This document shows positions 6,342 through 44,849 of a stretch of 64,000 nt of DNA, in pieces (the stretch's first letter is position 1; each line of letters opens with the position of its first letter). The DNA is taken from positions 1 through 64,000 of the forward strand of contig NZ_QWKI01000055.1 of NCBI RefSeq assembly GCF_009911645.1, in the 5' to 3' direction. Under the pieces are notes generated by a model, which made no database searches, was not told the origin of the DNA, and saw only the letters and a program-made list of their open reading frames with translations. The position numbers were made by a program, and so were the translations under genes. The DNA comes from Pseudoflavonifractor sp. 60. GTDB taxonomy: Bacteria > Bacillota > Clostridia > Oscillospirales > Oscillospiraceae.

Positions 6342-6709
6342 TACTTCCATCTTGCTGTTTGTACCTCCAGTCGGCGCAGTTCGTTCTGCTGATGCGCATC
6401 CAGCACCTCATGGAATGGACGGATGGTGTAGAGCAGGCTGCCGTTGTGCTTGAGACCGGTCCTGGTGAATACGATGGTGTCCTCTGTGCTGATGAGCCCT
6501 TTGTCAGCGAGAGCGCAGACGTGCTTGCGCACCGTATTGACGCTCAACTGAGTTGCTGCACCAATGGTTTTGTAGCTGGGCCAGCACTGACGGGTGCGCC
6601 GATTTGCACAGCGGAGCAGGTAGGAGTACACCGCAAACTCACCGGGGGATAATCCCAGAGAAAAAATTTCGTTGGGGGTGGGGAAATAGTTTTTGCCCGT
6701 CTTACTCAC
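6320..6709 (-). CDS. Winged-helix (RepA/helix-turn-helix) protein of element 1
   Basis: A 129-residue DNA-binding protein. The core TPNEIFSLGLSPGEFAVYSYL, then CWPSYKTIG and LSVNTVRKHVCALADKGLI, is the winged-helix domain found in plasmid replication initiators and element regulators. The GTG at 6709 is chosen: a GAGG site precedes it and it overlaps the excisionase stop by four bases (GTGA). The same gene pair with the same overlap exists in element 2 (26544-26978). It could be a replication initiator or a regulator of mobilization; nothing here decides. Confidence 0.75.
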   Translation of the reverse strand: MSKTGKNYFPTPNEIFSLGLSPGEFAVYSYLLRCANRRTRQCWPSYKTIGAATQLSVNTVRKHVCALADKGLISTEDTIVFTRTGLKHNGSLLYTIRPFHEVLDAHQQNELRRLEVQTARWKYAKTASL

Positions 6710-6918
6710 TGTGTACCTCCTTGAGTGTGATCTTCTACCCACTGGATGAATTTCTCCTTGGGGACCACCATTCTGCTGCCGACTTTCAGTACAGGGAAGT
6801 CGACTTCGTGCATGAGTTCGTAACTGCTGGACGGCGCAATGCCCAGCACCTTTGCAACCACCTCTACGTTGAGGAACAGCGGCAGTTCCTCATAGGTCTT
6901 GTAGACCGACTCTTTCAT
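6706..6918 (-). CDS. xis: Excisionase-type helix-turn-helix protein
   Basis: A 70-residue MerR/excisionase-like protein: FLNVEVVAKVLGIAPSSSYELMH is the winged helix-turn-helix, and VLKVGSRMVVPKEKFIQWVEDH is the wing and C-terminal helix. GAAGGAGG precedes ATG 6918. It heads the leftward chassis operon of element 1. Such proteins bend DNA at attachment arms and direct excision; here it may also control the operon. Confidence 0.8.
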   Translation of the reverse strand: MKESVYKTYEELPLFLNVEVVAKVLGIAPSSSYELMHEVDFPVLKVGSRMVVPKEKFIQWVEDHTQGGTQ

Positions 6919-7086
6919 TTTGATCCTCCTTCAAACTTTACTTGACTTTCTAACGGGTACGATGTAGACTGAATAAAAACAGGCGGGCGATATGTCCTTC
7001 TTGCTTGTAGTGTAACATTGCGTCAATCACTTGTCGAGTCCTATCTGAAAACAAATATAATTATGTCTAAGACGGGAGGAGCCGTT

Positions 7087-8055: not shown

Positions 8056-8117
8056 AAAAGATCGCCTTATTTTGCTTTAATGATGTTGACTTTTGTCTTG
8101 AATGTGTTGATTGCTTT

Positions 8118-8156
8118 CAACTCCGCCCGGTAAGGACGCCCGGACGGAGTTTTATT
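8118..8156 (+). terminator. Intrinsic terminator
   Basis: AACTCCGCCCGG pairs with CCGGACGGAGTT across a short loop and is followed by TTATT. It separates the zinc-ribbon gene from the beta-glucan cluster. Confidence 0.7.
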
Positions 8157-8288
8157 ATCCCCCCGGCATAATTCATGGTCCAGAAGTTTGCCTGCAAGCA
8201 TTTTGATATTTCAGTCATGGCAATGATATATCCTCAAAGGCGGTTAGAGATAAAATAAATAAAACGATTTGCAGGGAGGCTGGCGAAA

Positions 8289-8906
8289 ATGTTTCATCCG
8301 GACAGTTGTCTGATCCGATTTCTCGCAAGGATCTGTGATCTGCTGCTTCTGAATATTGCGCTGGTTCTTTCCTGCTGCACCGTTGTCCTTTCGGGAACCG
8401 CTGTTACTGCGCTCTACTCCATGACGCTGAAATTGATGCGGGGGCAGGACTGCGACCCAGTCAAAGGGTTTCTCCGGGCGTTGCGGGAAAATTTTCTGTC
8501 GTCGTCCTTCGCCACCATTCTGTTCCTTGCGGATGTGACCCTTCTGGCCGTCCTGCGCAGTGTGCTCTATGCCGAGACGCTGCTGATGCCGCCGGCGGTA
8601 TTCGTTATGCTGGCCATCCTCGCCGTATTTTTGACGGCCCTGTTGTCTTACCTGTTTCCCCTGCTGGCCCGCTTTGAGAATACCTTTTCCCATCATCTGA
8701 GCAACGCAATCCGGCTGTCCCTGGCCAATCTGCCCGTCACTGTTCTGATGACCACGGTCAATCTGCTGCCCCTGCTGATTGGCTTGTTGTTCCCCGCTCT
8801 GCTCGGAGTCGTATTTGCCTTCTGGCTGTTGTTCGGCTTCGCGGCAGGGGCCTGGATCAATTCCTTTTATTTGAATCGGATATTTGAAAGCAGAGAGGAT
8901 GGTTGA
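8289..8906 (+). CDS. YesL-family (DUF624) membrane protein
   Basis: A 205-residue integral membrane protein with about five hydrophobic segments (for example LLLNIALVLSCCTVVLSGTAV). The early TALYSMTLKL motif and the layout fit YesL/DUF624 proteins, which sit in Gram-positive polysaccharide loci and are thought to assist the ABC importer or its regulation. It is the first gene of the rightward cluster and overlaps the start of the GH16 gene. GGGAGG lies upstream of ATG 8289. Exact function is unknown for the family. Confidence 0.8.
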   Translation: MFHPDSCLIRFLARICDLLLLNIALVLSCCTVVLSGTAVTALYSMTLKLMRGQDCDPVKGFLRALRENFLSSSFATILFLADVTLLAVLRSVLYAETLLMPPAVFVMLAILAVFLTALLSYLFPLLARFENTFSHHLSNAIRLSLANLPVTVLMTTVNLLPLLIGLLFPALLGVVFAFWLLFGFAAGAWINSFYLNRIFESREDG

Positions 8907-9706
8907 TAACGGTGGAGGATTTGCTTTCCTATGAGGGCTGCCGCCTGGTGTTTGAGGACAATTTTGATGGAGCTGAGCTGGATCGGAGCCGCTGGAACGT
9001 GGAGCTGCACGAGCCGGGCTGGGTCAATGAAGAATTGCAGGAATATGTGGACTCCCCAGAAAGCATCAGCGTCAGGGGCGGAAAATTGCTGATCCGCCCG
9101 GTGAAAACGGTCCACGAAAACGGCACAATTTCCTACACCTCCGGCCGGATCACCACCCAGCACAAGTACGACTTTACCTACGGCCTGTTTGAGGCCCGGC
9201 TGAAGGTGCCCAGAGGGAAGGGCTTTCTGCCCGCCTTCTGGCTGATGACTACCGACGAGGACCGTTACGGCCAGTGGCCCGAGTGCGGCGAGATCGACAT
9301 CATGGAGATATGGGGAAGTCATACGGGGAAAAACCACGGGACCATCCACTACGGCCTGCCCCACCGGGAGAGCCAGGGGACGGTGGCCCTGGAAAACGGC
9401 GATTTTGCCGAGGAATTTCACAACTTCTCCCTGCTCTGGGAGCCGGGGCTGCTCCGATGGTATGTGGACGGTAGGTCCTTCTATGAGACAAGGGAGTGGT
9501 TTTCCGCCGGGGCGGACGGTGTGAAGAAGCCCTGCCCCGCCCCCTTTGACCACGATATGTACCTCATCCTGAATCTGGCCGTGGGAGGAAGCTGGGTCGG
9601 GTATCCGGACGAGACCACAGACTTTGAGCACGCCGCTTTTGAGGTGGATTATGTGCGGGTCTATCAGAAAATACAATCATCAACGGAGGTGACGGCACAT
9701 GGATAA
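8903..9706 (+). CDS. GH16 endo-beta-glucanase (laminarinase type)
   Basis: A 267-residue family 16 glycoside hydrolase that cleaves beta-1,3 or mixed beta-1,3/1,4-glucan with retention. The catalytic motif GEIDIMEIWG places the nucleophile at Glu130, the helper Asp at 132 and the acid/base at Glu135. Aromatic residues around (GFLPAFWLM, LLWEPGLLRWYVDG) fit the family. It starts with TTG after AGAGAGG, overlapping the DUF624 stop. There is no signal peptide, so it appears to act in the cytoplasm on imported oligosaccharides. Length is that of a lone GH16 domain. Confidence 0.9.
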   Translation: MITVEDLLSYEGCRLVFEDNFDGAELDRSRWNVELHEPGWVNEELQEYVDSPESISVRGGKLLIRPVKTVHENGTISYTSGRITTQHKYDFTYGLFEARLKVPRGKGFLPAFWLMTTDEDRYGQWPECGEIDIMEIWGSHTGKNHGTIHYGLPHRESQGTVALENGDFAEEFHNFSLLWEPGLLRWYVDGRSFYETREWFSAGADGVKKPCPAPFDHDMYLILNLAVGGSWVGYPDETTDFEHAAFEVDYVRVYQKIQSSTEVTAHG

Positions 9707-29345: not shown

Positions 29346-30221
29346 TCATCCAGCAATAGAGGCATCCTCGATAGCGTCCTCCAGGTGCTTCATGTTCATG
29401 TGCTTTTTGTTGCCCCACTGTGTACCGACCACATAACGCAGCCTGGCACAGACCAGCATGAGGGCGGAGTTTCCATTTGGGAAACACCCCACCACCCTGG
29501 TGCAGCGGCGGATCTCCCGGTTGAGCCATTCAATAACATTGTTGGTACGGATGCGAGCCCAGTGCTCGCCGGGGAAAATCGCAGTAGGTAAGCGTCTCCT
29601 CAATCCCATCCTCAACCGCGGCTTTCGCTTTTCCCGGGCAGTCTTTTGCTCTCCTGGGCACGGATCACCTTGAGCATCTTCGCCACCAGTTTCACTTTAG
29701 AGCGAGACGTCACTGAAAATACATTGCGGCAAAAGTGGACGGTGCACCGCTGGTATTTGGCCTCTGGGAACACCGCTCCCACGGCCTCCAGCATTCCAAG
29801 GTGCTTGTCTCCCACCACCAGTTTCGCCCCGTCCAGGCTGCGGCCGCGCAGCCACTGAAAGAAATTGACCCAACTGGCCTTGTCCTCTTTCATACCCTCG
29901 GCGGCACCCAAAACCTCGCGATATCCGTCCTCGTTTACTGTGATCGCCACCAGAATGGCCATATTTTCATGCTCTCCGCCCCAGTTCCGGCGCAGATATA
30001 TCCCGTCCACATAGACATATGGATACCCCCCCTGTAGGGGCCGGTTGCGCCAAGCCTCAATATGGACGTAGGCTTTCTTGTTCAACTCGCTGATGGTTGC
30101 CAGAGATACTTTGCTGCCCCACAGTGCCTCAGTAATGTCCTCCACACGCAGTACAGATATGCCGACTGGGTACATCTCAATCAGGATCTCCTCCACGCTG
30201 TCAAAGTCAAGGAAGAATTCC
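29346..30221 (-). pseudogene. IS256-family (Mutator) transposase remnant
   Basis: Two frames together give most of a mutator-type transposase. One (from about 30221) reads LREFFLDFDSVEEILIEMYP, then YVYVDGIYLRRNWG, LVVGDKHLG and RCTVHFCRNV, with catalytic Asp residues. The other (29346-29615) reads RTNNVIEWLNREIRRCTRVV, including the last catalytic Glu. The N-terminal third is missing and the frames break near 29615, so it is inactive. Confidence 0.8.
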
Positions 30222-30255
30222 CTTAATCCAGCAAGGGTAATTATCCTAATTATGC

Positions 30256-30282
30256 TAAAAGCGAGCCTTGCGGCCCGCTTTC
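30256..30282 (-). terminator. Terminator of the defence-like operon
   Basis: Read leftward, AAAGCGGGCC pairs with GGCTCGCTTT around GCAA and ends in T. It lies 27 bases after the SfsA-like gene. Confidence 0.65.
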
Positions 30283-30308
30283 AATAGATTCGGAAAAAAT
30301 TGAGGCTA

Positions 30309-30992
30309 TTATCCAACCAATACCGGGATAGTTGAATGAATGAGCGGACAGCCGTCTTTCATTTTCAGTGTAATCCCATAAACCGTCATTCCTTTTTCTA
30401 AGCATACATTGAACAAGCGGGCGTATTCTTCAATACCATTGTTAATCTGTATCTCTCTGACGTGGTGACTAAACGATGCAAAGAGATAACAAACCTTGAA
30501 GCCTTCATCCAAAAGAGAGGATAACTGGACTAGTTGTTTGATTCCCCGTTCCGAATACACCGTTGGGAACAGGGCGGTCTTTTGGAATGAGAGGATGCTT
30601 TTGATTTCTATGAGAGTTTTTGTGTCCTCGATATACAAATCGCTTTTATAGTCTCCAATCCTCTTTTCTCGGACAATCTGCTTTCGTAAGCCAAGAAATG
30701 AAAAACGCCGTTTAGGAAGTGCCACTTCGATAATCCTGTTTGCCTGAGATAGATTCAGAAGAATAAACTCGTTTTTGATTTTCACGGCATAGACTGCATA
30801 TTTTGTTCGTGCGTCTTTGGCCTGATTGTGCTTCAAAAGAACAGTACGGCCTTTCATATCGATAAAGTTACCCAATCTACAGGAGGACGGGATATAGCAT
30901 TCAACATCCTCATTGTCTATGGTAACCTGACAAAGAAAGCGGTTCTTGGTCTCCTCCTTGAAGGTTCCATAGATTATTTGCGATTCAGTCAT
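30309..30992 (-). CDS. SfsA-family nuclease-like protein, last gene of the defence-like operon
   Basis: A 227-residue protein with the two SfsA domains. The N-terminal OB-like part (FLCQVTIDNEDVECYIPSSCRLGNF) matches the SfsA pattern. The C-terminal PD-(D/E)xK part has SDLYIEDTKTLIEIKS (Asp and Glu-x-Lys) and the FPTVYSERGIKQLVQLSSLL box. It starts 22 bases after the FtsK-type gene stop and is in the same operon. SfsA proteins bind or cut nucleic acid; standard dpt loci do not include one as far as I know. It may be the effector nuclease of the system. Confidence 0.82.
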   Translation of the reverse strand: MTESQIIYGTFKEETKNRFLCQVTIDNEDVECYIPSSCRLGNFIDMKGRTVLLKHNQAKDARTKYAVYAVKIKNEFILLNLSQANRIIEVALPKRRFSFLGLRKQIVREKRIGDYKSDLYIEDTKTLIEIKSILSFQKTALFPTVYSERGIKQLVQLSSLLDEGFKVCYLFASFSHHVREIQINNGIEEYARLFNVCLEKGMTVYGITLKMKDGCPLIHSTIPVLVG

Positions 30993-31013
30993 TTGCTACA
31001 CCCCGTCGTCCGA

Positions 31014-34000
31014 TCATTTATTTTTGTCCTTTACGTGCTGCACAATCTCATCAAGCTCTGCAATCTCTATCAGATATCCTTGGGCGCGCTCCAGTGTATC
31101 GCTGTTGCGATAAATCATATCACCATGCTTTTGCAAATACTGCGCATCGGAAGCTTCGATGATCATCCGCGAGGAAATTCCATCATTGACCCGGAGAGCC
31201 ACGCGCCCGTTAAGCTGCGCCTTTGTGGTCGGAGGAACGAGCTTTGCCTCTGGCCGCTGAGTGCAGATCACAAGGTGAATGCCTCTGCTGCGCCCGGCCT
31301 GCGCAATCCGTTGCACAGGCTTGAAAAACGCATCCTTCTCCTTTTTCGTTTCCAACTGGTCAGCCAGATCAGCAAACTCATCAATGACCACCACAATCGG
31401 CTCAAGTTTCTTTTCGGCTTTTTTGTTGTACTCTATGATATTTGCCACCCTTGCCTCAGCCAACAGTCTGCCTCTGCGTTCCGACTCTTCAAAGATTACA
31501 TTCTTGATAACATTTGTGGCCTCCGTCGCATCGGATATAATTGCGCCAGAATACAAATGCGGAAGTCCCTCAAAATGGATGAAATCCTCCAACTTGGACG
31601 AGGACAACACCAACTGTAAATCCTCCTTGTGCGGATGGGTCATCAGTAGTGCAGCGAGCATCGTAAACAGGAAAACAGATTTGCCAGATCCAGTACTACC
31701 GCCGACCAGCATGTGCGGCATTTGCCCCAAATCTTCTATCAGGTCGCGGCCATTCGGTGTGCGCCCGAGTGGGAAGAAAAGCTGTTCTGGTGAAGTAACC
31801 GGCGGTAAATTCTCAATCACATCACTAAACAATACCTTCTCCCGCTGAAGCCGGGGAACATCGAGCAGTAGTTCGTCGGAGTTGGGAACCGGCTGAACGA
31901 TAACGCCACTGCGTTTCATTTCACGCCCGATATCCTCGATATGGCTGGTTAAGCCCTGCAATGCCTGCCCTCTCGCCAATTTGAACTTTATGCGTATTAC
32001 GCTCGGACCAACCACGGCGTCACCGGCGTTGCATTCCTTGAGGTTTACACGATAATCATTGCAGGACCGTTTGAAATCCTTGACCAACTGCTCAATTTCC
32101 TCGGGGCTAACGCTCACTGGAATTTGTTTCGGCACAGATTGCGGCGTAGAAATGGTTACAGGTGCTTTTTCGGGTTCCGCCTCCAACTGAGAAAGCGGTT
32201 CCTCCATCGTGGATGCTTTTTCAGAAGTGGTTTTTGAGGTGGCGTCATCGGCAGTTACGACAAACTCGTCAATTACCTCTCCAGCCCGTTTCATATCCTC
32301 GTCCTCGGGAGAAGTTGCAACGGGTTCCTCGCTCTCATCGAAATCAATCGTAACAGAAGTCTTCACGACCACATCATCGCCGAGAACATCCCGCTGGATT
32401 TCATGCGATGTCAACTTCCAGAAATCGATTCTAACATCTTCGAACTCGGGATTATGGCAGATGATGTGTTCACCGCCAGTCGCTTCATTTAATTTGATGT
32501 GCAGAATAATGCCGGAAATATCAATCTGAATGTTACTGCTCTTGCCATTCCCGAATGCCTTTTTCAGAATGTCGTACCACTTTTTCTGCCATTGTGCATC
32601 ATGGACATTTCTAAAGCATTCAAAGACAATCTGATATTTCAGGACTTCTCGCCGCGCCGACGTAAACATATCGGTTGTGTCCTCGTCGGCAGAGAAGATT
32701 TCCTTCAACATTTCTGCGATAGAAGCGACCTGATTAGCGGCGTGACCTGTGATTGCAAAGGAAGAACTCCCATCCTCTTTTGTGATGGTAGAATCAGAAG
32801 AATCGTCCCGAGTTTTTACCTCAATGGGCTGGATATGGAGAGTATTCTTTTCTTCTTCGTAATAAAGTCCAACAAGGTCCGCCCGCTCATTTCCGTATTT
32901 GCTGTTTGAGAGCCAGAGTCTCGCCTTATCATCGTCAAGCGAAGCGACCAACGAATCCTCATGCTGTCTCGTATACCACGAAGCGGCAAGCAGGGTTCCG
33001 ATTAGCCCCTTTTTCTTGTTCTCGATGGCTTGCGTATTGCTCCCAAAGCGTGGAATACTAATCAGACCGTTGGAGGCAATATGGCCGAATTGCTTCAGCA
33101 GATTAATCAGGATGTTCTCTTTCGGATAAAGATTGTAACCGCGAAGGAGCGTGATGTACTGCGCAATAATCCGCGAATGGCTAGATGCCCAAACATTGAC
33201 CATTCGCTTGTCGTACTGCATTTCCCCGATGGGAATGGAAGCCTCGGGTTGGTAGTTATTCGTATCCCGATCTGCCACCACCAACCACTGTACCTGCATA
33301 TCATGGATCGTCGAAACAACATCCGTCATGTCCGCGTTTCCATTATAGGTAGTGCGCGGATTCATGTTATTGCTGATAACATCAGCGGATTTCATCAGTT
33401 TGTGATAATCGCCGATTAATCCCGAATCCATCTCAGTAGAGGGGAAAATGCTGCCCTTGTGTTGGATTTCATCAAAGTCATAATCATAAGTGATAACAAG
33501 CGGGTTAATGTAAAGGTTTTGGCTGTTCGGGCCGAACTCAATAGCGTATGCGGACTGGTCAAAATAGAATGCGACATGAACAGGCTTATCTTTGAGTATC
33601 TGCTTTATTTCGCCTGCCGATGCAACATTCTTTATGCTGATCGTTATCTTACCCGTTCTCAGGTACTCGCCGATCTCATAATCCTTGCCTGAATAATCGA
33701 GTTTGGAAAGTTCCGTGTTGCCGTTCTGATTGCGCGTGAGATAGACATCATACACGACTCGTCTGCATCCGTTTTTATCCATGAAGGCTTTGATCTGCCG
33801 GATGATCCCGGTCAGTTCGGGTGCGTCCACAGAGCAGATTCTTACCTCTTCTTTGGTGTATGGAGCAAAACCAATCCAGCGAGAGAGAATTTCGCCGACA
33901 GCAGCCGTTCCATCATCACCGAGGTAACGGTTAGTCTTGTTTTCAAAGGTTGGTAGCATTTCAATATTGCCGGAGCACGGCAGCACCTTATCATCCATTG

Positions 34001-35768
34001 TCCCCGTCACAACTCGATTGGCAATAACAAAGCTCAGAATTTGTGGCAGTTTTGAGAGAACCTTTGCTAACGCTTCCTTATCCTCGTTACTCAGCGTGGC
34101 TTTCTTTCCCGGCAGACTGCGGAAAACCTCATAGTACCGCCAGAGATAAATGGGATGAAGCGGGAGCAGAATCGCCTTCCATTCCTTCGGTGTCTTGATG
34201 TAAAGTACATCGAGCAGCAACAGTGCGCGGGCGACATAGCCAGTTCCTCCCGTACTAATCTGGCGCATTGTGGGTTCGTTGACATTAAAAGCATGATATA
34301 ATTTTTCCCACGCCCGGATGTAGTTAATCAGGAGATTTCGGCTTTTCTCATCAGAGCCAAACAACAGAACCGGATGATACATGATCATATCCAGTTCACG
34401 GCACAGGGTGTTTCGATGCTCGGTCAGTTCTTTTATAATTGGCAAAAAGGGTTCTGCCGTCTCAATTTGCTTTTCGGTAAATTGAGAATCAAACTGAGTC
34501 AGAAAATCAAACAGGGCCTGACCGCCATCAATCCCGCCCTTAAAGGCGACGAGGGATTCCTCGTCCTTCGGATTGAAGCTATACTGCTCTTTGATATCTG
34601 CAGAGATAGCATCCTTCAGAACGGTTTCCTCAGTTTCAATCAATGCACCCCATGTTTTGTCATTGCAAACACGCCCAACGAGTTTGCGGAGATCCGTCTG
34701 ATTATTCTCCAGCACAATAGGTCTGTCACCGAAGATGCCGCCGATTAATGGCAAATCCCCTTCGTTTTCGTCATTTTCTGTATCGTAGTGTTTTCTTAAT
34801 GCCGCCAGCAGTTCCTTAATATTTTCGAAATCATCTTCGCCGCCAAAAACAACGGCATCCGAGATAAGTGCATCCAGTTCCTTTGGACGGATAGGCGCAA
34901 TGGGGTTGGGAGCAACATCTAACTCTTCGATAGGCGAATCGTCTGGATTAACCTTCGGTTTTTTCGGCTGCTCTTTTTTCTGTGACGCAGAGAATAACTC
35001 CTGTACGGTTGAAAAATCGAGTTCCTGTAGCGTACTCTTCTGCGCATACTTATAGAAATTTTGGAGTGCGCGGTATGCTGTCTGGAGCCGATTCTTATCC
35101 TTTGTTTTAGTTCGGGCAAGTGAGCGGCTGAGTTTCTTCCGGGAATCCTCACTAAGCTGTCCGATAGCGATTATGAGTTCGCGGTTCCGGCGCAACCGAT
35201 CCTCTGGCTTGTTTTTCGTACTGAGGATATCAGGATCAGAGAGAAGATTCAACCTCCACATATTGACCGGGATGGCCGCAGATTGTTCGTTCGTTTCGCC
35301 AACAGCGGCAACAAAATCACTTATCGCTTCAAAGGAAAAATAATCGGAGGCGTCCAAAAGAGCCGTCCAGAAATTGTGTGTCGGCGTATTGCTGTCGTTC
35401 TTAATTTGTGCACCAATCAGATGCTGCGACAGGTCTCTTACAGACACCACATCGAACTCCGCGAGAGAATGGAGTTTATCTGTGTCGTTGCTGATGAACA
35501 CTACAATATGCCCTGCACGCTCCGGCATGCTACGCCAAAGCACTGCTTTTTCAATGGAGTCAGAGAGAATATAGTTGTTCTTCTCGCCGGTATCGGCCAG
35601 CGGGTAACCTACCGCTGCGGCGTAAATATACTGACCTGTGCTTTCGGCGACAGAGGCAATAATCTTATCCGCATCGATAGAATTCACGCCTTTGACAATG
35701 ATTCCGACCTTAGTTTGGGGCAAGCGTTCATTCAGAAGATCAACAACAATCTGCTGTTTATCAATCAT
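31014..35768 (-). CDS. DptH-like protein: PD-(D/E)xK motif plus FtsK/HerA motor
   Basis: A 1584-residue protein. The N-terminal 900 residues have no motif I can name. At about 957-981 RADLVGLYYEEEKN, then IQPIEVKTRDD looks like a PD-(D/E)xK nuclease core. A low-complexity acidic linker follows (about 1150-1220). The C-terminal motor has Walker A GGSTGSGKS near 1354, Walker B VVVIDEFADL near 1457 and the TQRP sensor, as in FtsK/SpoIIIE. Size, nuclease-like motif and motor match DptH of phosphorothioation-dependent restriction. It overlaps the preceding gene by eight bases. Likely a DNA-tracking restriction machine. Confidence 0.75.
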   Translation of the reverse strand: MIDKQQIVVDLLNERLPQTKVGIIVKGVNSIDADKIIASVAESTGQYIYAAAVGYPLADTGEKNNYILSDSIEKAVLWRSMPERAGHIVVFISNDTDKLHSLAEFDVVSVRDLSQHLIGAQIKNDSNTPTHNFWTALLDASDYFSFEAISDFVAAVGETNEQSAAIPVNMWRLNLLSDPDILSTKNKPEDRLRRNRELIIAIGQLSEDSRKKLSRSLARTKTKDKNRLQTAYRALQNFYKYAQKSTLQELDFSTVQELFSASQKKEQPKKPKVNPDDSPIEELDVAPNPIAPIRPKELDALISDAVVFGGEDDFENIKELLAALRKHYDTENDENEGDLPLIGGIFGDRPIVLENNQTDLRKLVGRVCNDKTWGALIETEETVLKDAISADIKEQYSFNPKDEESLVAFKGGIDGGQALFDFLTQFDSQFTEKQIETAEPFLPIIKELTEHRNTLCRELDMIMYHPVLLFGSDEKSRNLLINYIRAWEKLYHAFNVNEPTMRQISTGGTGYVARALLLLDVLYIKTPKEWKAILLPLHPIYLWRYYEVFRSLPGKKATLSNEDKEALAKVLSKLPQILSFVIANRVVTGTMDDKVLPCSGNIEMLPTFENKTNRYLGDDGTAAVGEILSRWIGFAPYTKEEVRICSVDAPELTGIIRQIKAFMDKNGCRRVVYDVYLTRNQNGNTELSKLDYSGKDYEIGEYLRTGKITISIKNVASAGEIKQILKDKPVHVAFYFDQSAYAIEFGPNSQNLYINPLVITYDYDFDEIQHKGSIFPSTEMDSGLIGDYHKLMKSADVISNNMNPRTTYNGNADMTDVVSTIHDMQVQWLVVADRDTNNYQPEASIPIGEMQYDKRMVNVWASSHSRIIAQYITLLRGYNLYPKENILINLLKQFGHIASNGLISIPRFGSNTQAIENKKKGLIGTLLAASWYTRQHEDSLVASLDDDKARLWLSNSKYGNERADLVGLYYEEEKNTLHIQPIEVKTRDDSSDSTITKEDGSSSFAITGHAANQVASIAEMLKEIFSADEDTTDMFTSARREVLKYQIVFECFRNVHDAQWQKKWYDILKKAFGNGKSSNIQIDISGIILHIKLNEATGGEHIICHNPEFEDVRIDFWKLTSHEIQRDVLGDDVVVKTSVTIDFDESEEPVATSPEDEDMKRAGEVIDEFVVTADDATSKTTSEKASTMEEPLSQLEAEPEKAPVTISTPQSVPKQIPVSVSPEEIEQLVKDFKRSCNDYRVNLKECNAGDAVVGPSVIRIKFKLARGQALQGLTSHIEDIGREMKRSGVIVQPVPNSDELLLDVPRLQREKVLFSDVIENLPPVTSPEQLFFPLGRTPNGRDLIEDLGQMPHMLVGGSTGSGKSVFLFTMLAALLMTHPHKEDLQLVLSSSKLEDFIHFEGLPHLYSGAIISDATEATNVIKNVIFEESERRGRLLAEARVANIIEYNKKAEKKLEPIVVVIDEFADLADQLETKKEKDAFFKPVQRIAQAGRSRGIHLVICTQRPEAKLVPPTTKAQLNGRVALRVNDGISSRMIIEASDAQYLQKHGDMIYRNSDTLERAQGYLIEIAELDEIVQHVKDKNK

Positions 35769-37254
35769 TGCTCAGCCCTCCTAATCTGATTTGCAGAATG
35801 CCATCTGCCATTTCCTCTGCAAAGTCCATTGATTCGAGCGCCGAAGCAAACGAGGTGAAGTTTGCTTCCAGTGCATCTTCATCGACCTGCATGATCATGC
35901 CGCTTTGACGGATCTTGTCTAACTCAAATTGACTCCCACCGATGATGATGCCAAAGCGGTCCCATAGACGTTCACGGATTTCCTTACCGTTCAGCACCTC
36001 ATCCGCCCCCACACAAGAGCGAAGCATCATCTCCAAGACATCCTGTGAAAGAACGAATCGTTTGTTTGGATGCAACTTGTCCGGTGGATAGAGAATACCA
36101 GAGGAGGTTCCTAAAACCTTCAGGCAGTTAACTGGATGTGAAGATGCTTCAAGCGCCAGCATGTCATACATCGTTTCTCCAAAGGTCAGACGCGCATCAT
36201 CCTCGGAGGCGGCATTCTCAGCGCGTTCCTTTGCCAGAGACCAAAGCGTTTCCAACTCGTCCTTGCTGGTGCTGGAAATCTTCTTATCCTTCTTATAGGT
36301 CGGAACACTACATTCGAGCAGTCCCCTTTTATCAAAGCCGTTCTCCTCCAGCCACCGAGAGTAACCCCATGCATAAAAACGGTTGATTGATTTGTGCATC
36401 TGCGTATACGACATTTCGGATGCTCTGGCAACGCTGCTCTGACTCGGGGCCTTTCCAGAGAAATCCAGCAGAATCGGCCTAATCTGCTCACCGCAGTAGA
36501 ATGCCTCGAGCATGGCCATATACCGAATCAGATGGAAGATGCAGAAAAAGTTGAACAAGCGAAGTTGGGTAAGTGTATTAGGATGCACCTTGAAATTTTC
36601 AAGAAGGCAAAGGCCACTCTCTTTGATTCCCTGCAAGAACCATGTTGTATTCTCGTTTATATTCTGGAAAGCCGGTAGTTCTTCGTGGCGACTCACATCC
36701 TGAAACTCTTCCATGTCTTTTTCTACTACCGGCTCGAACAACAAGGAAATCGGGTCATTTGCAGAGGAGAGCACACCCTTTATGTAGTTTGCCAGATCAG
36801 GACAATACTCCTTGATGAGACCGCCAATGAACTCGCCGGTGTCCTCGTACATTGAGCGCCGAGTGATAAAATAACTTGATCCAGCGGTATAGGAAATCAT
36901 GTCATCCTTGAGACCCTTTACGACATAAACGCCCTTATCGGCGGAAAGTAATCTCTGCATGACATTTCGGAGAGATTCCAGAGCATTCGGTGTGACGCTT
37001 TCCTCGATTTTCTCTCTCTCCTTCATCGAGTCATAAATGGTGTCGAGTTCATTTCCCTTCGGCACCACGCCTTTCGCATCAGAAACCAGTGCCAGCCGCT
37101 TAATGCTCATGGTAGTATTGTATTTACCATAGATGCTTCTCAACACACCACCCGCAACATGGACAGGTTTGATGGAGCCGCCATTCGGAGTGAAGCCGAC
37201 ATATTTTCTATCGACAGCCGTTCTGCTGTCGCTAAGAAAAATCTGCTCTGCCAT
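35761..37254 (-). CDS. Protein of unknown fold in the DptG position
   Basis: A 497-residue soluble protein (MAEQIFLSDSRTAVDRKYVG). It is mainly helical after residue 90 with aromatic-rich stretches (RLFNFFCIFHLIRYMAMLEAFY). The end (GIIIGGSQFELDKIRQSG, then NFTSFASALESMDFAEEMADG) is acidic and helical. No catalytic motif is visible. By gene order it stands where DptG stands in dpt loci and has a similar length; sequence similarity to DptG cannot be judged by eye. It begins one base after the large ATPase gene and overlaps the FtsK-type gene, so all three are likely made together as a complex. Confidence 0.6.
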   Translation of the reverse strand: MAEQIFLSDSRTAVDRKYVGFTPNGGSIKPVHVAGGVLRSIYGKYNTTMSIKRLALVSDAKGVVPKGNELDTIYDSMKEREKIEESVTPNALESLRNVMQRLLSADKGVYVVKGLKDDMISYTAGSSYFITRRSMYEDTGEFIGGLIKEYCPDLANYIKGVLSSANDPISLLFEPVVEKDMEEFQDVSRHEELPAFQNINENTTWFLQGIKESGLCLLENFKVHPNTLTQLRLFNFFCIFHLIRYMAMLEAFYCGEQIRPILLDFSGKAPSQSSVARASEMSYTQMHKSINRFYAWGYSRWLEENGFDKRGLLECSVPTYKKDKKISSTSKDELETLWSLAKERAENAASEDDARLTFGETMYDMLALEASSHPVNCLKVLGTSSGILYPPDKLHPNKRFVLSQDVLEMMLRSCVGADEVLNGKEIRERLWDRFGIIIGGSQFELDKIRQSGMIMQVDEDALEANFTSFASALESMDFAEEMADGILQIRLGGLSND

Positions 37255-37255
37255 T

Positions 37256-40200
37256 TCATGCTTCCTCCGTTCTTGAACTGTTCACCGAGAGATACTTTTT
37301 ATCCTCACGGTCAATCATGACATCAATTCGCTTTTTGTTCTGGATATCGAGCAGATTGATATTTACGATATCTTCCTCAATCCCATTAAAGGATTGCAAC
37401 TGTTCGATGAAACGCCAGACCTTCTTTACGAGATCGGATTCGAGGAAAAGGACGGGAACTCCGCGTTCTGCTTCTGAAAGCAGCAGATACATATCGAAGT
37501 CAATTTTCAGGAAAATGTTCGCTGCGTCCTTTTTCTCAAAGCGCACATAGTTCGGGATCATTTCAATTCCGGCTTGCATATTTTTTTGGAGCGTGGGTCT
37601 ACCGATACGAAAACTGCTGGTTTTTTGGGTGCCAATGGAAATCAGCACCTTGCGCGGTTCATTATCAAACCTGTGTCCAGACCAAATCTTCATTTCGGAG
37701 TTCGATGGTTTTGCGCTTCCGAAGAATGCGTTAATTTTTCGAATCAGTTCCTTGGCGATTTTCTTGTCGTTCTGCTGCAGGAAGGCTTGGAACTTAGAGG
37801 CGTCATCATCAAGTATCTTTAGGAGTTCCTCACCATGGGTATTGAAGAAATAAAACTGTCTTTTGCGGAGCCTGAACAACTCATCATTATCGTAGGCGAT
37901 GGCCTCGGCAGGAACCTTGTAACTCTCCGCCCATGAGTCTGCCTCAAGATCATTCAGAATGATTTTCTCATCCCAAAGTGGGTGCGAGATCTTGACCGGA
38001 TCGATACTGCGCCTTATTGCGTCAAACAGTCCACCCTTACCCGCATAGACCAGATTGGCGATATCATATTCATCATTACCAGCCGTCTGATTCAACTGTT
38101 TGCAGGTGCGGTTGCCAAAGAGTAGGAAAGCAATAAGACTTTGCACCTCTCGCAGTGTTGCGTGATACCCCTGAAGAACCACTCGTTCCAAGACGATAGA
38201 CAGCCGTTTCTGGAACAGAGCACCGTTTAACAAAGCGCGATTTCTTGTTACGACACAGTCATCGTGCAACGGGCATCCGTCACACTCTTTATAATGCTCC
38301 TTGGAGGTGAGCTTAGTAATCGCCTGGGCAAGCACCTCCGGAGTAAGGACCTCGCGTTTGCTGAGATCAAATACGACCACACTATCAGGATTGATCTCCT
38401 CGTTATGAAAAACGATTGAGGATGTCATTGCGCGGTATGCTTCGGCAATGGGTGCAAAAGCACTACCGTACTCCTTATTCACGGAGTAGAGTATAGCAGC
38501 ATTAATCGCAATGACAAACGCTTTCCCGTTATCGTGAGCATTGACCCAGCCATCAAAAATCTCTCGATTTGATAGTGTACTGGCATCAAGAACGATTTCG
38601 ATGGGCTTACCCAATTTTTCTAATTCGGGCTTCATTATTCTGATAATGTGTGTCTTGCCGTCGCCCGGATTGCCCGTAAGGACAATGTCTTTCCCGTTCT
38701 TTGCTGCGTCTATAATCGCAGAATCGAGTCTTGTTTTCAGGTGGATGAGAGATAGACGTTCGGGAGCAATGTGATCCGCATACCCACTTGAACCACGATA
38801 GAAGTCACGAACGAATTGGAGTCCTGCTTTTGCTTCGTCATTCGCCGGCATTTGTGCCACCTCCAATTGGGGAAAGCTCCACTCTTTTTCTCCATCTATT
38901 TGGTTTCCGACCATGAATGCGTTTTTATCAAACGCCCGTATCCGCTCATAGATCGGTTCATAATTCAGCCTGCTGGAGAGCCATCGCTCAGACCAATAAT
39001 CTATAATTTTTTGCGTTCCAGCCTTATACTGCTCCATATCGGTGTAGTAGTGCGGTCTATCAGCTTTGCCCAACAGGTAATCCGATGTATTAGCTGCAAG
39101 ACAGGCTCCATATACGATTCTCGACATGGCATGCTTTGAGAAATCCTTTGAGTCCTCATTTGTGGCCTCAAGGAGTTCCCGGATTGCCATTGTGAGAAGA
39201 CGCATTTTGGGGCTGGCCCCCTCGCCGAACACATGATTAATCCGGTTAAATCCGTCGCTTGTCGCCTCAGTGAGACTAAGAGTTGTGGCCTTGCTGATAT
39301 GCATCGTACCGAAGCCAATTGTCATTCCGAGCCGTTTCCAAACGACATCAAAATCCGATCCAAACACCTCGCTGGGGATTTTAAGCCGATTATACTGGCT
39401 TGAGCCAACATAATATAAGGACGTAGTGCCGACATAGACAAGCTCCGCTGGACGACACACTGGCTGGCCTTTGAGTCTGCTGGCAATTTCGCTGGCTTTG
39501 TTTTCATATCGGGTTTTATAGTCATGGACGACCTGGGGAGAGGTGGCAAGCAGAGCAACGAGTTTTCCACCTAAGATTTCATTGTACGGAGGGATTGCTC
39601 CGCAAACATTCAGTTCCATGAGGCTGGAGCCGATATGCTTGGTCTTTTGAGCAACGAGGGCATTGCGAATTACAGAACTACCAGTTTCGCTTTTGCAGAA
39701 ATTAATCCAGTTCTCATCATAATCAGGATCGTTTACAACGTCGGTAAGCGTTTTCTTGGCGATCAGTAATCTCGCAAGCTGCTCGGCCCGCTTCCTGTTG
39801 TAAAGGGCTTGCTCTGTTTTTGTAGATATGCTTCCGAGTTCGCTTCGTTCATCATCGTCGTATCCGTTTTCGGAAGAATTTCTGAGCGAATCCTGACGCT
39901 GCTGCTCTGCATTTGCTGCAAAATCAAGAAGCATACGGATATCTTCATTCGTTGGGTTCCTGACCGTCATTTCCGTACAAAGCTCGGAATAGTCGATGCC
40001 GGAGATACCATCCTCGATATATCCCAGCAGGCGCTGGAGCTCAAGACGAGCATCATCGCCGGGCAGTGTGAGGATATTCTCGATAAAAGCATACTGGTTC
40101 CAGCCAATATAGTCATCTCTACAAGTAATCTGCACGGCACAGTTTTCCAGAGATGCTATTCCCATGACTGCATGCATGGGGTGGGCGGCATCCCTGATGA

Positions 40201-40843
40201 GATATTGCATTGTTCTTCCGGGAGTAGTCTCGGAAGGCGTCGACCATGTCAGCCGGAAATATCTCCAAATCTCTGATATCTTAAGGCCGGTAAACTGGTC
40301 TCGTTCGTTTTCCGTAACGAGTTGCAGATATGGCTGGATTGCCTGCTTAACACTAATCCTTCCTGCGTGCGCCTGTTCTAACCGATTGGCAAGTTCGGGG
40401 CCGTCTGCAATAAGTTCGGAAATATCGTGTCCGACAGAGTTCCGAGCCTCCATATGCTTGATAAAGTCGGTAAAAGTAAGCAGACGCTCATGCCGACTTT
40501 CACGCATCCAACTCCGTAGCAGCTGCTTTACCTCGGGGGCGGACCCATCATGGGGGGAATTCCCGTTGAGGGTTGGGAGGTTCATGTAAAGGACGCCATC
40601 TCTATAAAACGCTTTCCACGAGGCATGGATAAGATCCCGGAAGAGGAACCAAACTGCTCTGTATTTTTTTCGTTGATTAAGATTGAAGGTGCATTCTGAA
40701 GTTACCCACTTGATTTCCTCATCCGCAATGTTTTCGATGTCGGCCAGAGTCGTGTCCTCAGTTATTCTGGATACCGCATTGTAAAACCGGATACGAAAAT
40801 CACCTTCGAGCCTTGGCCTAAAAGGGATTTCCCGAGTCAGCAT
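37256..40843 (-). CDS. DUF4338 (DruA-like) and DptF-like AAA ATPase fusion
   Basis: A 1195-residue protein in two parts. The N-terminal half resembles DUF4338, the DruA domain of type I Druantia: TPGRTMQYLIRDAAHPMHAV and CRDDYIGW (about 215-245), GSSQYNRL (about 480), then GFGTMHISK and a SPKMRLLT segment (about 510-550). The C-terminal half is a P-loop ATPase with GNPGDGKTH (about 722) and a Cys cluster CDGCPLHDDCVVTRNR (about 825), in the style of DptF. Normal DptF is only about half this length, so the DUF4338 part is an added domain. It starts 22 bases after the XRE gene. Lower GC than the flanks suggests separate transfer. Confidence 0.72.
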   Translation of the reverse strand: MLTREIPFRPRLEGDFRIRFYNAVSRITEDTTLADIENIADEEIKWVTSECTFNLNQRKKYRAVWFLFRDLIHASWKAFYRDGVLYMNLPTLNGNSPHDGSAPEVKQLLRSWMRESRHERLLTFTDFIKHMEARNSVGHDISELIADGPELANRLEQAHAGRISVKQAIQPYLQLVTENERDQFTGLKISEIWRYFRLTWSTPSETTPGRTMQYLIRDAAHPMHAVMGIASLENCAVQITCRDDYIGWNQYAFIENILTLPGDDARLELQRLLGYIEDGISGIDYSELCTEMTVRNPTNEDIRMLLDFAANAEQQRQDSLRNSSENGYDDDERSELGSISTKTEQALYNRKRAEQLARLLIAKKTLTDVVNDPDYDENWINFCKSETGSSVIRNALVAQKTKHIGSSLMELNVCGAIPPYNEILGGKLVALLATSPQVVHDYKTRYENKASEIASRLKGQPVCRPAELVYVGTTSLYYVGSSQYNRLKIPSEVFGSDFDVVWKRLGMTIGFGTMHISKATTLSLTEATSDGFNRINHVFGEGASPKMRLLTMAIRELLEATNEDSKDFSKHAMSRIVYGACLAANTSDYLLGKADRPHYYTDMEQYKAGTQKIIDYWSERWLSSRLNYEPIYERIRAFDKNAFMVGNQIDGEKEWSFPQLEVAQMPANDEAKAGLQFVRDFYRGSSGYADHIAPERLSLIHLKTRLDSAIIDAAKNGKDIVLTGNPGDGKTHIIRIMKPELEKLGKPIEIVLDASTLSNREIFDGWVNAHDNGKAFVIAINAAILYSVNKEYGSAFAPIAEAYRAMTSSIVFHNEEINPDSVVVFDLSKREVLTPEVLAQAITKLTSKEHYKECDGCPLHDDCVVTRNRALLNGALFQKRLSIVLERVVLQGYHATLREVQSLIAFLLFGNRTCKQLNQTAGNDEYDIANLVYAGKGGLFDAIRRSIDPVKISHPLWDEKIILNDLEADSWAESYKVPAEAIAYDNDELFRLRKRQFYFFNTHGEELLKILDDDASKFQAFLQQNDKKIAKELIRKINAFFGSAKPSNSEMKIWSGHRFDNEPRKVLISIGTQKTSSFRIGRPTLQKNMQAGIEMIPNYVRFEKKDAANIFLKIDFDMYLLLSEAERGVPVLFLESDLVKKVWRFIEQLQSFNGIEEDIVNINLLDIQNKKRIDVMIDREDKKYLSVNSSRTEEA

Positions 40844-40865
40844 GAATGAAGACCTCTCTCTCCGA

Positions 40866-41093
40866 TTATTCTCTCACCAGTTCCATGATGTCTCCTACAT
40901 CACAGTCGAGGGCGCAACAGATTTTGCAAAGGATCTCGGTATTGGTGCTTCCGCCGCGACCGAGCTTTGCAAGAGAGGTCGCACTGATTTCAGCCAGTTC
41001 GCAGAGGCTTTTTTTCTTGATTCCCTTATCAATCAGCAGTTTGAACAGCTTATTGTAGCTGAAACGTCCTTTTTTACCGGCATGGGTATCCAT
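40866..41093 (-). CDS. XRE-family regulator heading the defence-like operon
   Basis: A 75-residue Cro/C1-type repressor of the short HTH_26 style: NKLFKLLIDKGIKKKSLCELAEIS, then ATSLAKLGRGGSTNTEILCKICCALDCDVGDI. Small proteins of this kind often lead defence operons and hold expression down. It lies 22 bases before the ATPase-fusion gene, same strand. A purine-rich GGGGGG site precedes the ATG. The upstream stretch has CGAAAG motifs twice (about 41168-41260) and TAGAAT as a possible -10. Confidence 0.82.
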   Translation of the reverse strand: MDTHAGKKGRFSYNKLFKLLIDKGIKKKSLCELAEISATSLAKLGRGGSTNTEILCKICCALDCDVGDIMELVRE

Positions 41094-41342
41094 TACACTC
41101 CCCCCCTTGTTATTTGCGAAATCAATGGCACAAACCAGTTGGGCAATTATTGGCCAGCGCCCCTAATCGCCCGAAAATTGATGCCTCGGTCTGAAAACGA
41201 AAATATTCTATCACAAAATTGCGCTTTCGTCTATATTTTTCCACTTTCGCCAAAATATTTTATTGAAGTCTTGAATGGCAGCTTGATTGTCTTCTCGAGC
41301 TTTGATATTCTTGTCCATACTGCTCAGGACATAAAGTGTTGA
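41094..41342. promoter_or_regulatory. Promoter region of the defence-like operon
   Basis: Noncoding and AT-rich. Read leftward, TAGACG and TAGAAT with a 17-base gap (about 41206-41235) is a possible weak promoter. No other gene is seen. Confidence 0.35.
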
Positions 41343-42580: not shown

Positions 42581-43354
42581 CTATGCGTAGAAGTTGACGC
42601 TGTTGGGTATTCCGACAAACATATAGCAGTATGTAATCCCGTCGTACTGGGTCACGCCCACACCGATGCAGTCGCATCTCGGATCGATCATCGTCTGGAA
42701 GTGTCCGGGAGAGTTGATCCAATTGTCGACGGCACGTTGAGCAGCATCGGCTGTACCGGTGAACACAGTCAGGTTATCACCGAAGCCGTAGGGGTAACCG
42801 GCGTCGACAGCGGCCTTGCTCTCCTCCGGAGAGTGATGCCAGGTGTACCGCCGGTTGGAGCAGATTTGGGCGGCGTTCATCAGGGCATCGTTGACCGGCA
42901 GCTCTGACACACCGTTGGCCTTGCGGGTCTGGTTGATGAGCCGTATCAGTTCCAGCCGTATCTCCATGCAGTCTGTCAGGCTGGTATTGTCATTCTCAAC
43001 GGAAGGGGCGGGGTCAACGGTGGCACCGACCGTGAGCGTCATGCTTCCACACTCCCCGGCACTGTTGGAGGCGGTGATCTCCGCTGATCCCTCTGACTTG
43101 GCGATGGCAACCCAGAAGGTCAGCACCTGTTCCACCGCCACGATGTCCGATGCGCTGGAGGTGACGGTGCACTCCGTACCTCTGGGGCCAATGATGAGTC
43201 CGCTTCGCTCTCCGACCTCCAAGGTACTGCCTTTGTAGCTGCTTACTTGGATGGATTCGTCTGGCGCTACTGTCGCTGTGGCGGGGATGGTGAGGGCGGT
43301 TGCGAGGATGCCTGCTGTCAGTGCGGCAGCGCTATACTTTTTTATACTAATCAT
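42581..43354 (-). CDS. Secreted CAP/SCP-family protein
   Basis: A 257-residue exported protein. Signal peptide: positive start, hydrophobic stretch (AALTAGILATALTIPATA). Residues about 30-115 form an Ig-like (BIG2-type) domain (SYKGSTLEVGERSGLIIGP). The CAP domain follows: LRLINQTRKANG-type helix, YTWHHSPEE with conserved His, GDNLTVF, and NWINSPGHFQTMIDP with the second His, then VGVTQYDGITYCYMF. AGGAGG precedes ATG 43354. CAP proteins in Clostridia are secreted and of unclear function. It is the right-most cargo of element 2. Confidence 0.88.
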   Translation of the reverse strand: MISIKKYSAAALTAGILATALTIPATATVAPDESIQVSSYKGSTLEVGERSGLIIGPRGTECTVTSSASDIVAVEQVLTFWVAIAKSEGSAEITASNSAGECGSMTLTVGATVDPAPSVENDNTSLTDCMEIRLELIRLINQTRKANGVSELPVNDALMNAAQICSNRRYTWHHSPEESKAAVDAGYPYGFGDNLTVFTGTADAAQRAVDNWINSPGHFQTMIDPRCDCIGVGVTQYDGITYCYMFVGIPNSVNFYA

Positions 43355-43662: not shown

Positions 43663-43707
43663 TTGGTAAGGATGAGGTCCCCAGTTCAAATCTGGGTAGC
43701 AGCTCCA
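43663..43707 (+). repeat. tRNA-Thr(GGT) 3'-fragment, attachment core 3
   Basis: The same 45 bases as cores 1 and 2; right boundary of element 2 and left boundary of a third, decayed element. No fourth copy was seen to the right in the window. Confidence 0.92.
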
Positions 43708-44849
43708 GAGAAACCCGTTGTCCCGCAAGGGATAGCGGTTTTTTTTATTTTGTGGTTGCTGTAAAAAATCGGTGAGAAAAGAAGACCGTAATCCTGGTAT
43801 TCCTCGCCAAAGAAAGCCTTGTTTGCGGCGATCTCCTCCAGTCTGCCTTTCGGTTCATGGAGCAGCGGTGTGGTCAGGTACTGTTTGCGTACACTGCCAT
43901 CGGTTTTGGGGTCTTTCAGAATCAGCCTGCTTTTGGAAGTGGAGACCTGTTTCGGAAAGACCTTAATAATTTTTTCTTCTGGCAGTTCACGCAGAGCGTC
44001 ATCGGAGACACGCTCCACAATCTGAGTGATCCACATACTGCGGTCCCGAAAGTTGATACTGCCTGCCTCAAGGCCAACAACCTCACCGGAGCGGAGAGAG
44101 CAAATAAAGCCGAGGTGGACTGCCAAATGCAGCAGAGGGTCATTCTCAATGCTGTCCAGCACATCCAGAACTCGTTTGGGCTCCCAGGCCTTCCGTTTCT
44201 TTGTCTTTTCCGAGGGTGGAGTCGTTTCGGGAATCTCCGTGACATAGCCCCATCGTTTGGCGGTTGGAAAGCCAAGCATAAGAATGTTGTAGCATTTCTT
44301 GACAGTCGGAGAACTGAGCGTGGGAATTTCCGAGGCTTTCTTTCCGTAGCTCTTACTTCCGCGACAAGGCTTCCTGCGGAGATAATCAATGAAGTCGTCA
44401 ATGGCCTGTGGTGTGATGGAGCTCATGACCCAATCGCCCAAATAGGGGTAAATGTGGGCCTCTAAATTCTGCACATAGCTGTCGTAGGTCTTGGGTGAAA
44501 ACCCCTTATTCCTGGCGTGTACGGGTAGAAACCGCTGCATAAACTCACGGTATGTTCTATGGGTATTGTCCTCCTGACAGGAAGCAGTCGGAAGCTCTTT
44601 CACATCAGGATTTTCCTGGGAGATTCTTTGCGCGGATTTTTCAATGGCACGCTTCCTTTTGTAGTCCAGTGCAGCTTGCCGGATATCATCAGGGCGTTTT
44701 TGCGTTTGCAGAAAATCAATGTACGCTTTTCTCTGGATCGCTTCTAATTCGGTATTGTAGGATTCCCATTGCTGTTTACGGATGCCATCGGAGGTTTGAT
44801 AGGTATAAACGACATTATGGGAAGATCCCCTAATGGTGTAGGTTGCCAC
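43686..44849 (-). pseudogene. int: Truncated tyrosine recombinase of element 3
   Basis: The frame codes for 387 residues. The N-terminal arm part, the core-binding domain (GFSPKTYDSYVQNLEAHIYPYL) and Arg I (CSLRSGEVVGLE) are present. The HxLRH box and the nucleophile Tyr are missing. After DYGLLF the frame reads through the tRNA terminator and into att core 3, so its last residues come from noncoding DNA. It cannot recombine. A deletion reaching to the att core is the simplest cause. Confidence 0.85.
43714..43747 (+). terminator. Terminator next to att core 3
   Basis: CCGTTGTCCC pairs with GGGATAGCGG around GCAA, followed by eight T. It is the strongest of the three terminators beside the cores. 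Confidence 0.8.

Follow-up and report, generated by a model that had tools for sequence, protein, structure and literature searches.

A probable phosphorothioate-independent DndFGH-type restriction operon with DruA and an SfsA-like nuclease as standing partners

A stretch of 64,000 nucleotides (nt) from Pseudoflavonifractor sp. 60 (contig NZ_QWKI01000055.1, positions 1 to 64,000; hereafter the window) carries a gene in which DruA, a protein of Druantia, is fused to DndF, and this is followed by a DndG-position gene, dndH and a gene for an SfsA-like nuclease. The four genes are best read, with a probability of roughly 0.6, as a horizontally moved, phosphorothioate-independent restriction operon of the DndFGH type, in which DruA, either free or fused to DndF, and the SfsA nuclease would be standing partners. 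Gene content, gene order, tree groups, intact residues and, in three genomes, the lack of SspC and of DndC above cut-off come from the present analysis, and the DndFGH domains and their restriction role are taken from the literature. The DruA-DndF fusion was already known; not found in the papers searched are the conserved set with SfsA, a split form and a DruE-linked haloarchaeal form. The features of the operon are as follows.

37256..40843, minus strand: druA-dndF fusion gene, 1195 amino acids (aa), ATG start, zero internal stops
38924..40843, minus strand: DruA (DUF4338, predicted GNAT-like) half, aa 1-640, from PADLOC DruA1 and Pfam DruA
37259..38863, minus strand: DndF/SspF half, aa 661-1195, from SspF and DndF profiles
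38648..38674, minus strand: Walker A motif GNPGDGKTH, aa 724-732, from alignment
38255..38284, minus strand: C-x2-C-x5-C, aa 854-863 (C854, C857, C863)
35761..37254, minus strand: dndG/sspG-position gene, 497 aa
31014..35768, minus strand: dndH/sspH, 1584 aa, restriction endonuclease (REase) plus FtsK/HerA translocase
32814..32879, minus strand: D964 ... E983-x-K985 of the DndH REase, identified by the PD-(D/E)xK pattern
31680..31700, minus strand: Walker A of the DndH FtsK part, aa 1357-1363
30309..30992, minus strand: sfsA-like nuclease gene, 227 aa, 21 nt past dndH
30600..30641, minus strand: D118 ... E129-x-K131 of the SfsA nuclease, identified by the PD-(D/E)xK pattern

An earlier reading of the window from its letters only (the sequence-only reading) had described a DruA/DUF4338-like half joined to a DptF-like ATPase with a Cys cluster. 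Both halves and the cluster are found as described, as are the three motifs quoted for the DruA half (CRDDYIGW at aa 241-248, GSSQYNRL at 480-487 and GFGTMHIS at 510-517). PADLOC DruA1 (PDLC00001, a 675-position profile) matches the fusion protein at 1e-118 over aa 45-637, and Pfam DruA (PF14236, DUF4338), which had been named as a check, matches at 5e-30 over aa 399-591 (105 bits, cut-off 27). The C-terminal half matches SspF (PDLC02795) at 1.5e-15 over aa 691-933 and DndF more weakly, at 2.6e-5. Its Walker A is intact, and the strand FVIAIN (N781) matches the Asn-type Walker B described for DndF by Rakesh, Aravind and Krishnan (2024, PMC10853773), who also describe a Zn insert in some versions. 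The Cys cluster is likely the zinc insert of the lid, and is missing from the split-type DndF of locus L023 in the alignment. By analogy with the published DndF, the DndF half would consist of a P-loop kinase-like core and an alpha+beta domain. An assembly error as the source of the fusion was considered and is ruled out, since nine further full-length fused proteins, 66-97% identical to that of the window, retain both halves in alignment, one of them in Anaerotruncus colihominis DSM 17241, whose record is titled complete genome.

Downstream of the fusion, on the same strand, the DndG-position gene, dndH and sfsA follow with gaps of 1, -8 and 21 nt. The sequence-only reading had placed the same three genes here, and profiles agree with it, though weakly for DndG. 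DndH matches SspH at 5.9e-67 over aa 1214-1576 and FtsK_SpoIIIE at 5.5e-31. The DndG-position protein matches weakly by itself (SspG 0.0088, MAD7 6.6e-4), so that its tentative assignment to DndG, in this module a triple winged-helix protein, follows a chain of relatives: the window protein and that of genome G024 (BLAST 5.7e-23), a haloarchaeal protein (L065) and that of G024 (1.0e-21), and a second haloarchaeal protein (L057) and SspG (2.5e-12). The SfsA-like protein matches Pfam SfsA (6.5e-19), SfsA_N, an OB domain (2.4e-9), and the solved SfsA 4dap (2.9e-6), and scores 86.4 bits where the NCBIfam sfsA equivalog model requires 126.45; judged by these profiles it is a divergent branch of SfsA. 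In alignments, D964, E983 and K985 are invariant in nine of nine DndH, two haloarchaeal ones among them, as are G1357, T1359, G1360, S1361, G1362 and K1363 of the Walker A, and D118, E129 and K131 are invariant in all 12 SfsA compared from such loci. The predicted nuclease residues of DndH and SfsA and the motor residues of DndH are thus intact.

Relatives of the fusion are encoded at 16 loci in genome and viral contigs, 13 from one search and 3 from another. SfsA is the next gene after DndH in 13 of the 13 fused relatives whose contig reaches past DndH; contig ends truncate L006, L018, L021 and G031, which are left out of the count, and SfsA is not judgeable in the fused form of G636 (L049). 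By equal gene lengths L013 and L020 repeat L008, and L014 repeats L009, which leaves 10 distinct fused loci besides the window. E-values of the related-locus search are relative to the candidate set only. At one of these 10 (L016, 10001-14419) an in-frame 1472-aa gene runs from DruA-DndF, as far as about aa 719, straight into the C-terminal half of DndH; this rearranged gene would be either an operon deletion or a misassembly.

The set is also found in a split form. Separate neighbouring genes for DruA and DndF, followed by DndG and DndH, are present in six genomes of the phylum (G024, G729, G467, G967, G1152 and G1001). SfsA is adjacent in all five split loci that can be judged, the contig of G967 (L174) ending inside DndH. 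In G729 it is inverted yet adjoins the unit, and the G1152 frame has only 145 aa, of which 136 align. Identities between the G024 set and that of the window are 34% for DruA, 26% for DndF, 23% for DndG, 24% for DndH and 44% for SfsA. Thus SfsA is the best kept part of the set. The operon copy is the sole SfsA found in four of the six genomes examined (A. colihominis, G729, G467 and G1001); a second SfsA is present in the genome of the window (G000) and in G024. In G467 (contig C8, L051 and L052) two long DruA genes stand one at each end of the DndFGH-SfsA unit. Judged by gene order, DruA-DndF, DndG, DndH and SfsA are a conserved set, with SfsA and DruA as standing parts.

It is very improbable that these genes are mere neighbours in a defence island, with SfsA a bystander. 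Such genes do cluster in islands, and in L008 the unit is preceded by an ABC-3C system. Against this stand the single strand and short gaps of the operon, the same place of SfsA in every fused relative that can be judged, and its adjacency in G729 even though inverted. A control search for SspF across 398 phylum genomes finds it in 12, three of which also have a long DruA (G000, G467 and G636). SfsA or DUF4338 is found by profile in none of nine SspF loci without long DruA, a soft control for reasons given below.

The sequence-only reading also suggested that such a system might act without the dnd modification. Of the Dnd modification genes DndC (TIGR03183) was sought; it is not found above cut-off in G000, G024 or A. 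colihominis (G040), and the one match below the cut-off (19 bits) is in A. colihominis. Of SspA to SspD, SspC (PDLC02779) was sought, in seven genomes, and it is not found in the same three. We infer that the operon may be independent of any mark. Use of a phosphorothioate made elsewhere in the cell, in the manner of SspABCD-SspFGH, is very improbable. Apart from DruA, the operon is matched best by the profiles SspF, SspG and SspH, SspC is present in some of the other genomes, and partial SspE matches extend to G000; the three genomes without SspC or DndC above cut-off stand against it. SspE was rejected as a marker for phosphorothioate systems, its matches being partial and present also in seven of 14 control genomes.

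Part of this architecture has been described. Rakesh, Aravind and Krishnan name a GNAT "annotated as DUF4338 in Pfam" as one of the domains joined to the DndF N-terminus, argue that DndFGH stands alone, without the modification module or DndABCDE, and view the fused domain as a back-up effector (PMC10853773). A claim that the DruA-DndF fusion is unreported is therefore ruled out, and with it the statement of the sequence-only reading that no described system combines the two. In place of the suggested new defence type, the operon is better described as a DndFGH variant with a presumed role in defence. The words Druantia and SfsA have no match in the main text of PMC10853773, supplements being outside the search, so that neither the link to Druantia nor the SfsA component is in that text. 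Among open-licence PMC texts, supplements excluded, none was found that has SfsA together with DndFGH, DndH, SspH or DUF4338, and the conserved SfsA set, the split DruA/DndF loci and the haloarchaeal DruE-DruA-DndFGH loci were likewise not found. Those of these texts that name both Druantia and DndFGH are PMC12602166, PMC12904381 and PMC12926258.

The operon shares with the DndFGH of PMC10853773 the fused architecture, the Asn Walker B and Zn insert, and the REase and FtsK parts of DndH; it differs in that the fused domain is there an occasional co-effector, and split-DruA and DruE-linked loci are not in its sections 20 and 25. SspF, SspG and SspH of SspABCD-SspFGH (PMC8092258) are the nearest PADLOC profiles of its DndF, DndG and DndH parts, whereas DruA and SfsA are additions, and SspC is not found in three of seven genomes. 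As for canonical Dnd, DndC is not found above cut-off in any of three genomes. With Druantia type I the operon shares DruA, and in four of five haloarchaeal loci a DruE-type helicase lies beside the unit. However, DruB to DruE are not found by profile in the window operon, the motor is an FtsK-type DndH, and the window DruA is a long form, extended at the N-terminus and carrying a helical insert. Matches to MADS are the weak one of MAD7 to the DndG-position protein and those of MAD8, and of MAD3 at 0.01, to the FtsK part of DndH; other MAD profiles are not found among the eight window proteins scanned with PADLOC.

Long DruA is rare. It is present in four of 398 genomes of the phylum, 11 more having only short or partial DUF4338, and in five of 394 genomes of the order, the window's and one fragment included. 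A search of 391 genomes of the class with the whole protein as a single sequence returns only the window and two short DUF4338 proteins. The fusion protein matches 15 of 72,556 plasmid records and no phage record, and scans of viral contigs with DruA and DndF profiles return only the three viral contigs already in the set.

In haloarchaea five plasmids have one gene each for DruA, DndF, DndG and DndH, dndG and dndH being broken in L064. On the other four (L057, L058, L059 and L065) a helicase adjoins DruA-DndFGH. The L057 helicase is a full-length match to DruE1 (1569 bits) and a companion gene matches DruD1 weakly (7e-6); L058 and L059 have the same helicase layout by annotation only, and the DruE of L065, 57% identical by BLAST to that of L057, stands in a different arrangement. 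Judged by these matches and annotations, the four are a joint Druantia I/DndFGH locus. At the place of SfsA after dndH, L057 and L059 have a 368-aa gene that by eye has the look of a CoiA-type nuclease (L057 sequence), and in L065 a PDDEXK_1 nuclease (9.9e-20) lies beside DruE. Hymenobacter canadensis has the fused form with an IS3 element inside the unit, and SfsA is not found there; the SfsA search of plasmid records gave three matches. In the stretches fetched, Paracoccus has a long DruA with a DruE-like helicase, and Leisingera a long DruA adjoining an annotated DEAD helicase, both without DndFGH. Loci of this kind, with long DruA and no DndFGH in the stretch, are L061, L062, L063, L066 and L069, which are alphaproteobacterial plasmids and one viral contig; a MzaB-like gene lies just before the long DruA in L063 and L069, and a DruE-like helicase after DruA in L062. 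The genome of the window itself has, on other contigs, two full-length DruE1 genes (C189:12769-18006, L164, 1825 bits; C176:15053-20290, L165, 1725 bits), each preceded by a DruD1-like gene; a DUF4338 gene was not found beside them, and at E 1e-10 a search of this genome gives no DruA besides that of the window.

In a tree, 20 DndFGH-linked DruAs are set apart from four others by a 100/100 branch. The groups of the DruA tree are fused Clostridia, split and haloarchaeal, and the DndF tree shows the same three, compared as groups. Hymenobacter forms a long branch of unsure placement in the trees, so that a second fusion event is no more than a possibility.

A number of observations weigh against the operon as read here. 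The SspF control is soft because all seven test loci match SfsA and DUF4338 by construction, the profiles having been built from them or their relatives; because a DndH relative is present in only one of the nine control loci (L191), the DndF profile matching eight; because in six of these loci the SspF frame is 855-1529 aa long and may be a kinase fusion; because two control contigs are short (L194, 5.6 kb; L193, 10 kb); and because the SspF search misses G729, a genome with both a long DruA and the unit. As to marks, SspC is strong in G467, which has a split unit, though on another contig, and weak in G636, G729 and G1001, and SspE matches over about the first 100 residues occur in G000, G636 and G040. 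G000 consists of 394 contigs and is 96.7% complete, and the search for mark genes covered DndC, SspC and SspE profiles. SfsA is not found on the haloarchaeal or Hymenobacter plasmids. Finally, where measured, DndF, DndG and DndH of the window are only about 21-28% identical to those of the split or haloarchaeal groups, so that a single mechanism across the groups is assumed.

For such a mechanism the following is proposed. A target on incoming DNA would be found by DndG and the DNA-binding parts of DndH, and the complex would be gated by the nucleotide-binding core of DndF. DndH would then translocate on the DNA with its FtsK motor and cut with its REase, while SfsA would serve as a second nuclease, probably on ends or strands exposed by the motor. 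DruA, tied to DndF, might mark self DNA or test for a mark, in place of sulfur. We infer the role of SfsA, the substrate of DruA and defence itself.

Hhalign comparisons (E 4.4e-87) unite short DUF4338, phage DUF4338 and long DruA in one family and show that long DruA has in addition an N-terminal extension and a helical insert, the latter some 200 aa in size. A conserved loop of the DruA half is as follows.

39560..39592, minus strand: PPYNEILGGKL, aa 418-428, between the strand at 408-416 and the next long helix in an AlphaFold2 (AF2) model

All 21 aligned rows, from marine phages to the window protein, have L424, G426, K427 and L428, and P418 and G425 are conserved in at least 90%. Other invariant residues in these rows are P171, G209-R210, R242-D243, T473, S475, Y484 and R575. 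GNATs hold coenzyme A (CoA), by its pyrophosphate, at the loop following a core strand, where the usual motif is Q/R-x-x-G-x-G/A. The LGGKL loop of DruA may thus lie at the CoA-pyrophosphate site of a GNAT, and is the one feature seen here that would bear on CoA binding and acyl transfer.

Structure prediction, which the sequence-only reading had proposed, was made for a short member of the family and for the full-length fusion protein. The AF2 model of a short DUF4338 (L147; pLDDT 84.5, pTM 0.81) has, by our own count, acyltransferases as 46 of its 50 listed PDB matches, the best with a probability of 0.92 and E 0.046; a few, such as LasI, RimJ and Rv0802c, are counted as acyltransferases by their family. 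Two results tell against a GNAT fold: for the L147 model no acyltransferase match falls under E 0.001, and the model of the full-length fusion protein (pLDDT 72.6, pTM 0.51) has nothing under E 0.001 and no acyltransferase in the best 50 of 605 matches. A GNAT fold of DruA, the one given in PMC10853773, is thus probable but weakly supported.

DUF4338 genes are present in 31 of 50,697 phage records, mostly of Synechococcus phages and also of Pelagibacter phages. The viral contigs L070-L146 are marine phages, which we labelled T4-like, with a solo DUF4338 of about 385-430 aa, and all three marine-phage DUF4338 proteins scanned match phrog_19197. Model m50f102560de8 has four BFVD matches under E 0.001: uncharacterised proteins of Faunusvirus (3.8e-18), Yasminevirus (6.5e-14) and Dasosvirus (2.5e-8), which we take to be giant viruses, and one phage fragment.

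That DruA acts on DNA, placing or testing a self mark, is the reading we lean to, at somewhat less than even odds. Mom-family GNATs attach acyl groups to DNA, and in jumbo phages they occur fused to REases (PMC7824862), so a DNA target is possible for DruA too, and they offer a precedent for a DNA-acylating GNAT fused to a REase. However, Mu Mom has no profile similarity to DUF4338, and DUF4338 as a relative of Mom by sequence was rejected (hhalign probability 0.5%). A fuller version of the DNA reading, in which DruA would be a GNAT directed at DNA, making or reading a non-sulfur, perhaps acyl, self-mark and shared by the DndH and DruE motors, the haloarchaeal two-motor plasmids being the joint form and the phage DUF4338 (phrog_19197) forging the mark, is doubtful. 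It is rated lower because a review, PMC12904381, indicates methylation for type I Druantia: it tables Druantia as discriminating self by DNA methylation and states, citing a preprint, that phage Druad1 evades type I Druantia by promoting the methylation of phage DNA. That account fits an action on DNA but points to a methyl rather than an acyl mark.

The published reading of exactly this fusion makes DruA a co-effector instead: DndF would sense invader nucleotides, and the GNAT would acylate proteins and halt growth if restriction fails. The PDB matches listed are mostly protein, small-molecule and acyl-homoserine acyltransferases, and DndF bears other effector-like N-terminal domains (PMC10853773). 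An optional back-up should come and go, whereas DruA stays with DndFGH and SfsA in both fused and split form; this constancy has a limit, as the searches started from DruA or DruA-DndF and would miss loci that had lost DruA. Over the whole analysis, loci were sought through DruA-DndF, DruA or DndF, and DndFGH-SfsA sets without DruA are mostly missed outside the SspF control. The solo phage DUF4338 and the DruA-DruE pair of L062, without DndFGH in the stretch fetched, fit a shared specificity or modification part equally or better. The co-effector role is rated rather unlikely.

Unlikely as well is a DruA that has lost CoA catalysis and acts as a structural or DNA-reading subunit, positioning DndF and DndH (or DruE) on DNA. 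The supposed CoA loop, P-Y-x-x-x-LGGKL, is unusual beside the usual GNAT motif given above, and the helical insert of about 200 residues in long DruA could bind partners, but the residues invariant over 21 rows, from phages to the window protein, resemble an active site.

The remaining features concern the surroundings of the operon.

40866..41093, minus strand: HTH_26 (Cro/C1-type) regulator, 75 aa, ending 22 nt before druA-dndF; Pfam HTH_26 9.6e-14
30203..41336, no strand: block common to Anaerotruncus colihominis, blastn, 94.9% identity, 11.1 kb

Comparable small helix-turn-helix (HTH) genes lie upstream in L007-L011, L015 and L017, and not in L012 or L019, as judged by eye. A scan of the operon for promoters and terminators gave zero excess over shuffles. 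Outside the block, blastn against A. colihominis DSM 17241 finds only four matches, of 77-405 columns and 74-78% identity, and the GC content of the block is 0.47 against 0.54 for the window. From the high identity, the unshared flanks and the difference in GC content, the 11.1-kb operon block is judged to be mobile and horizontally moved. Just outside it, at 29612-30196, is an IS256-type transposase fragment, and on the other side are an integrase gene, whose catalytic domain is matched poorly (0.075), and a gene for a CAP-domain protein (43686-44849 and 42581-43354). Directly 5' of the unit are ABC-3C genes in L008 (CTD11 and a DUF2326 ATPase, 6630-9620) and a DUF2326 ATPase of ABC-3C in L015 (7955-9634); L010, L011 and L013 have genes of similar length at this position.

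How DndFGH tells self from foreign DNA where sulfur-marking genes are absent is a question already raised in print (PMC10853773). The four-gene operon of a named strain, A. colihominis DSM 17241, together with the versions with free DruA and those linked to DruE, makes this question testable, because the operon is compact, each of its parts can be removed and the DNA of the host can be examined for a new kind of mark. For DruA, so far a Druantia protein, the set would add a second, independent partner.

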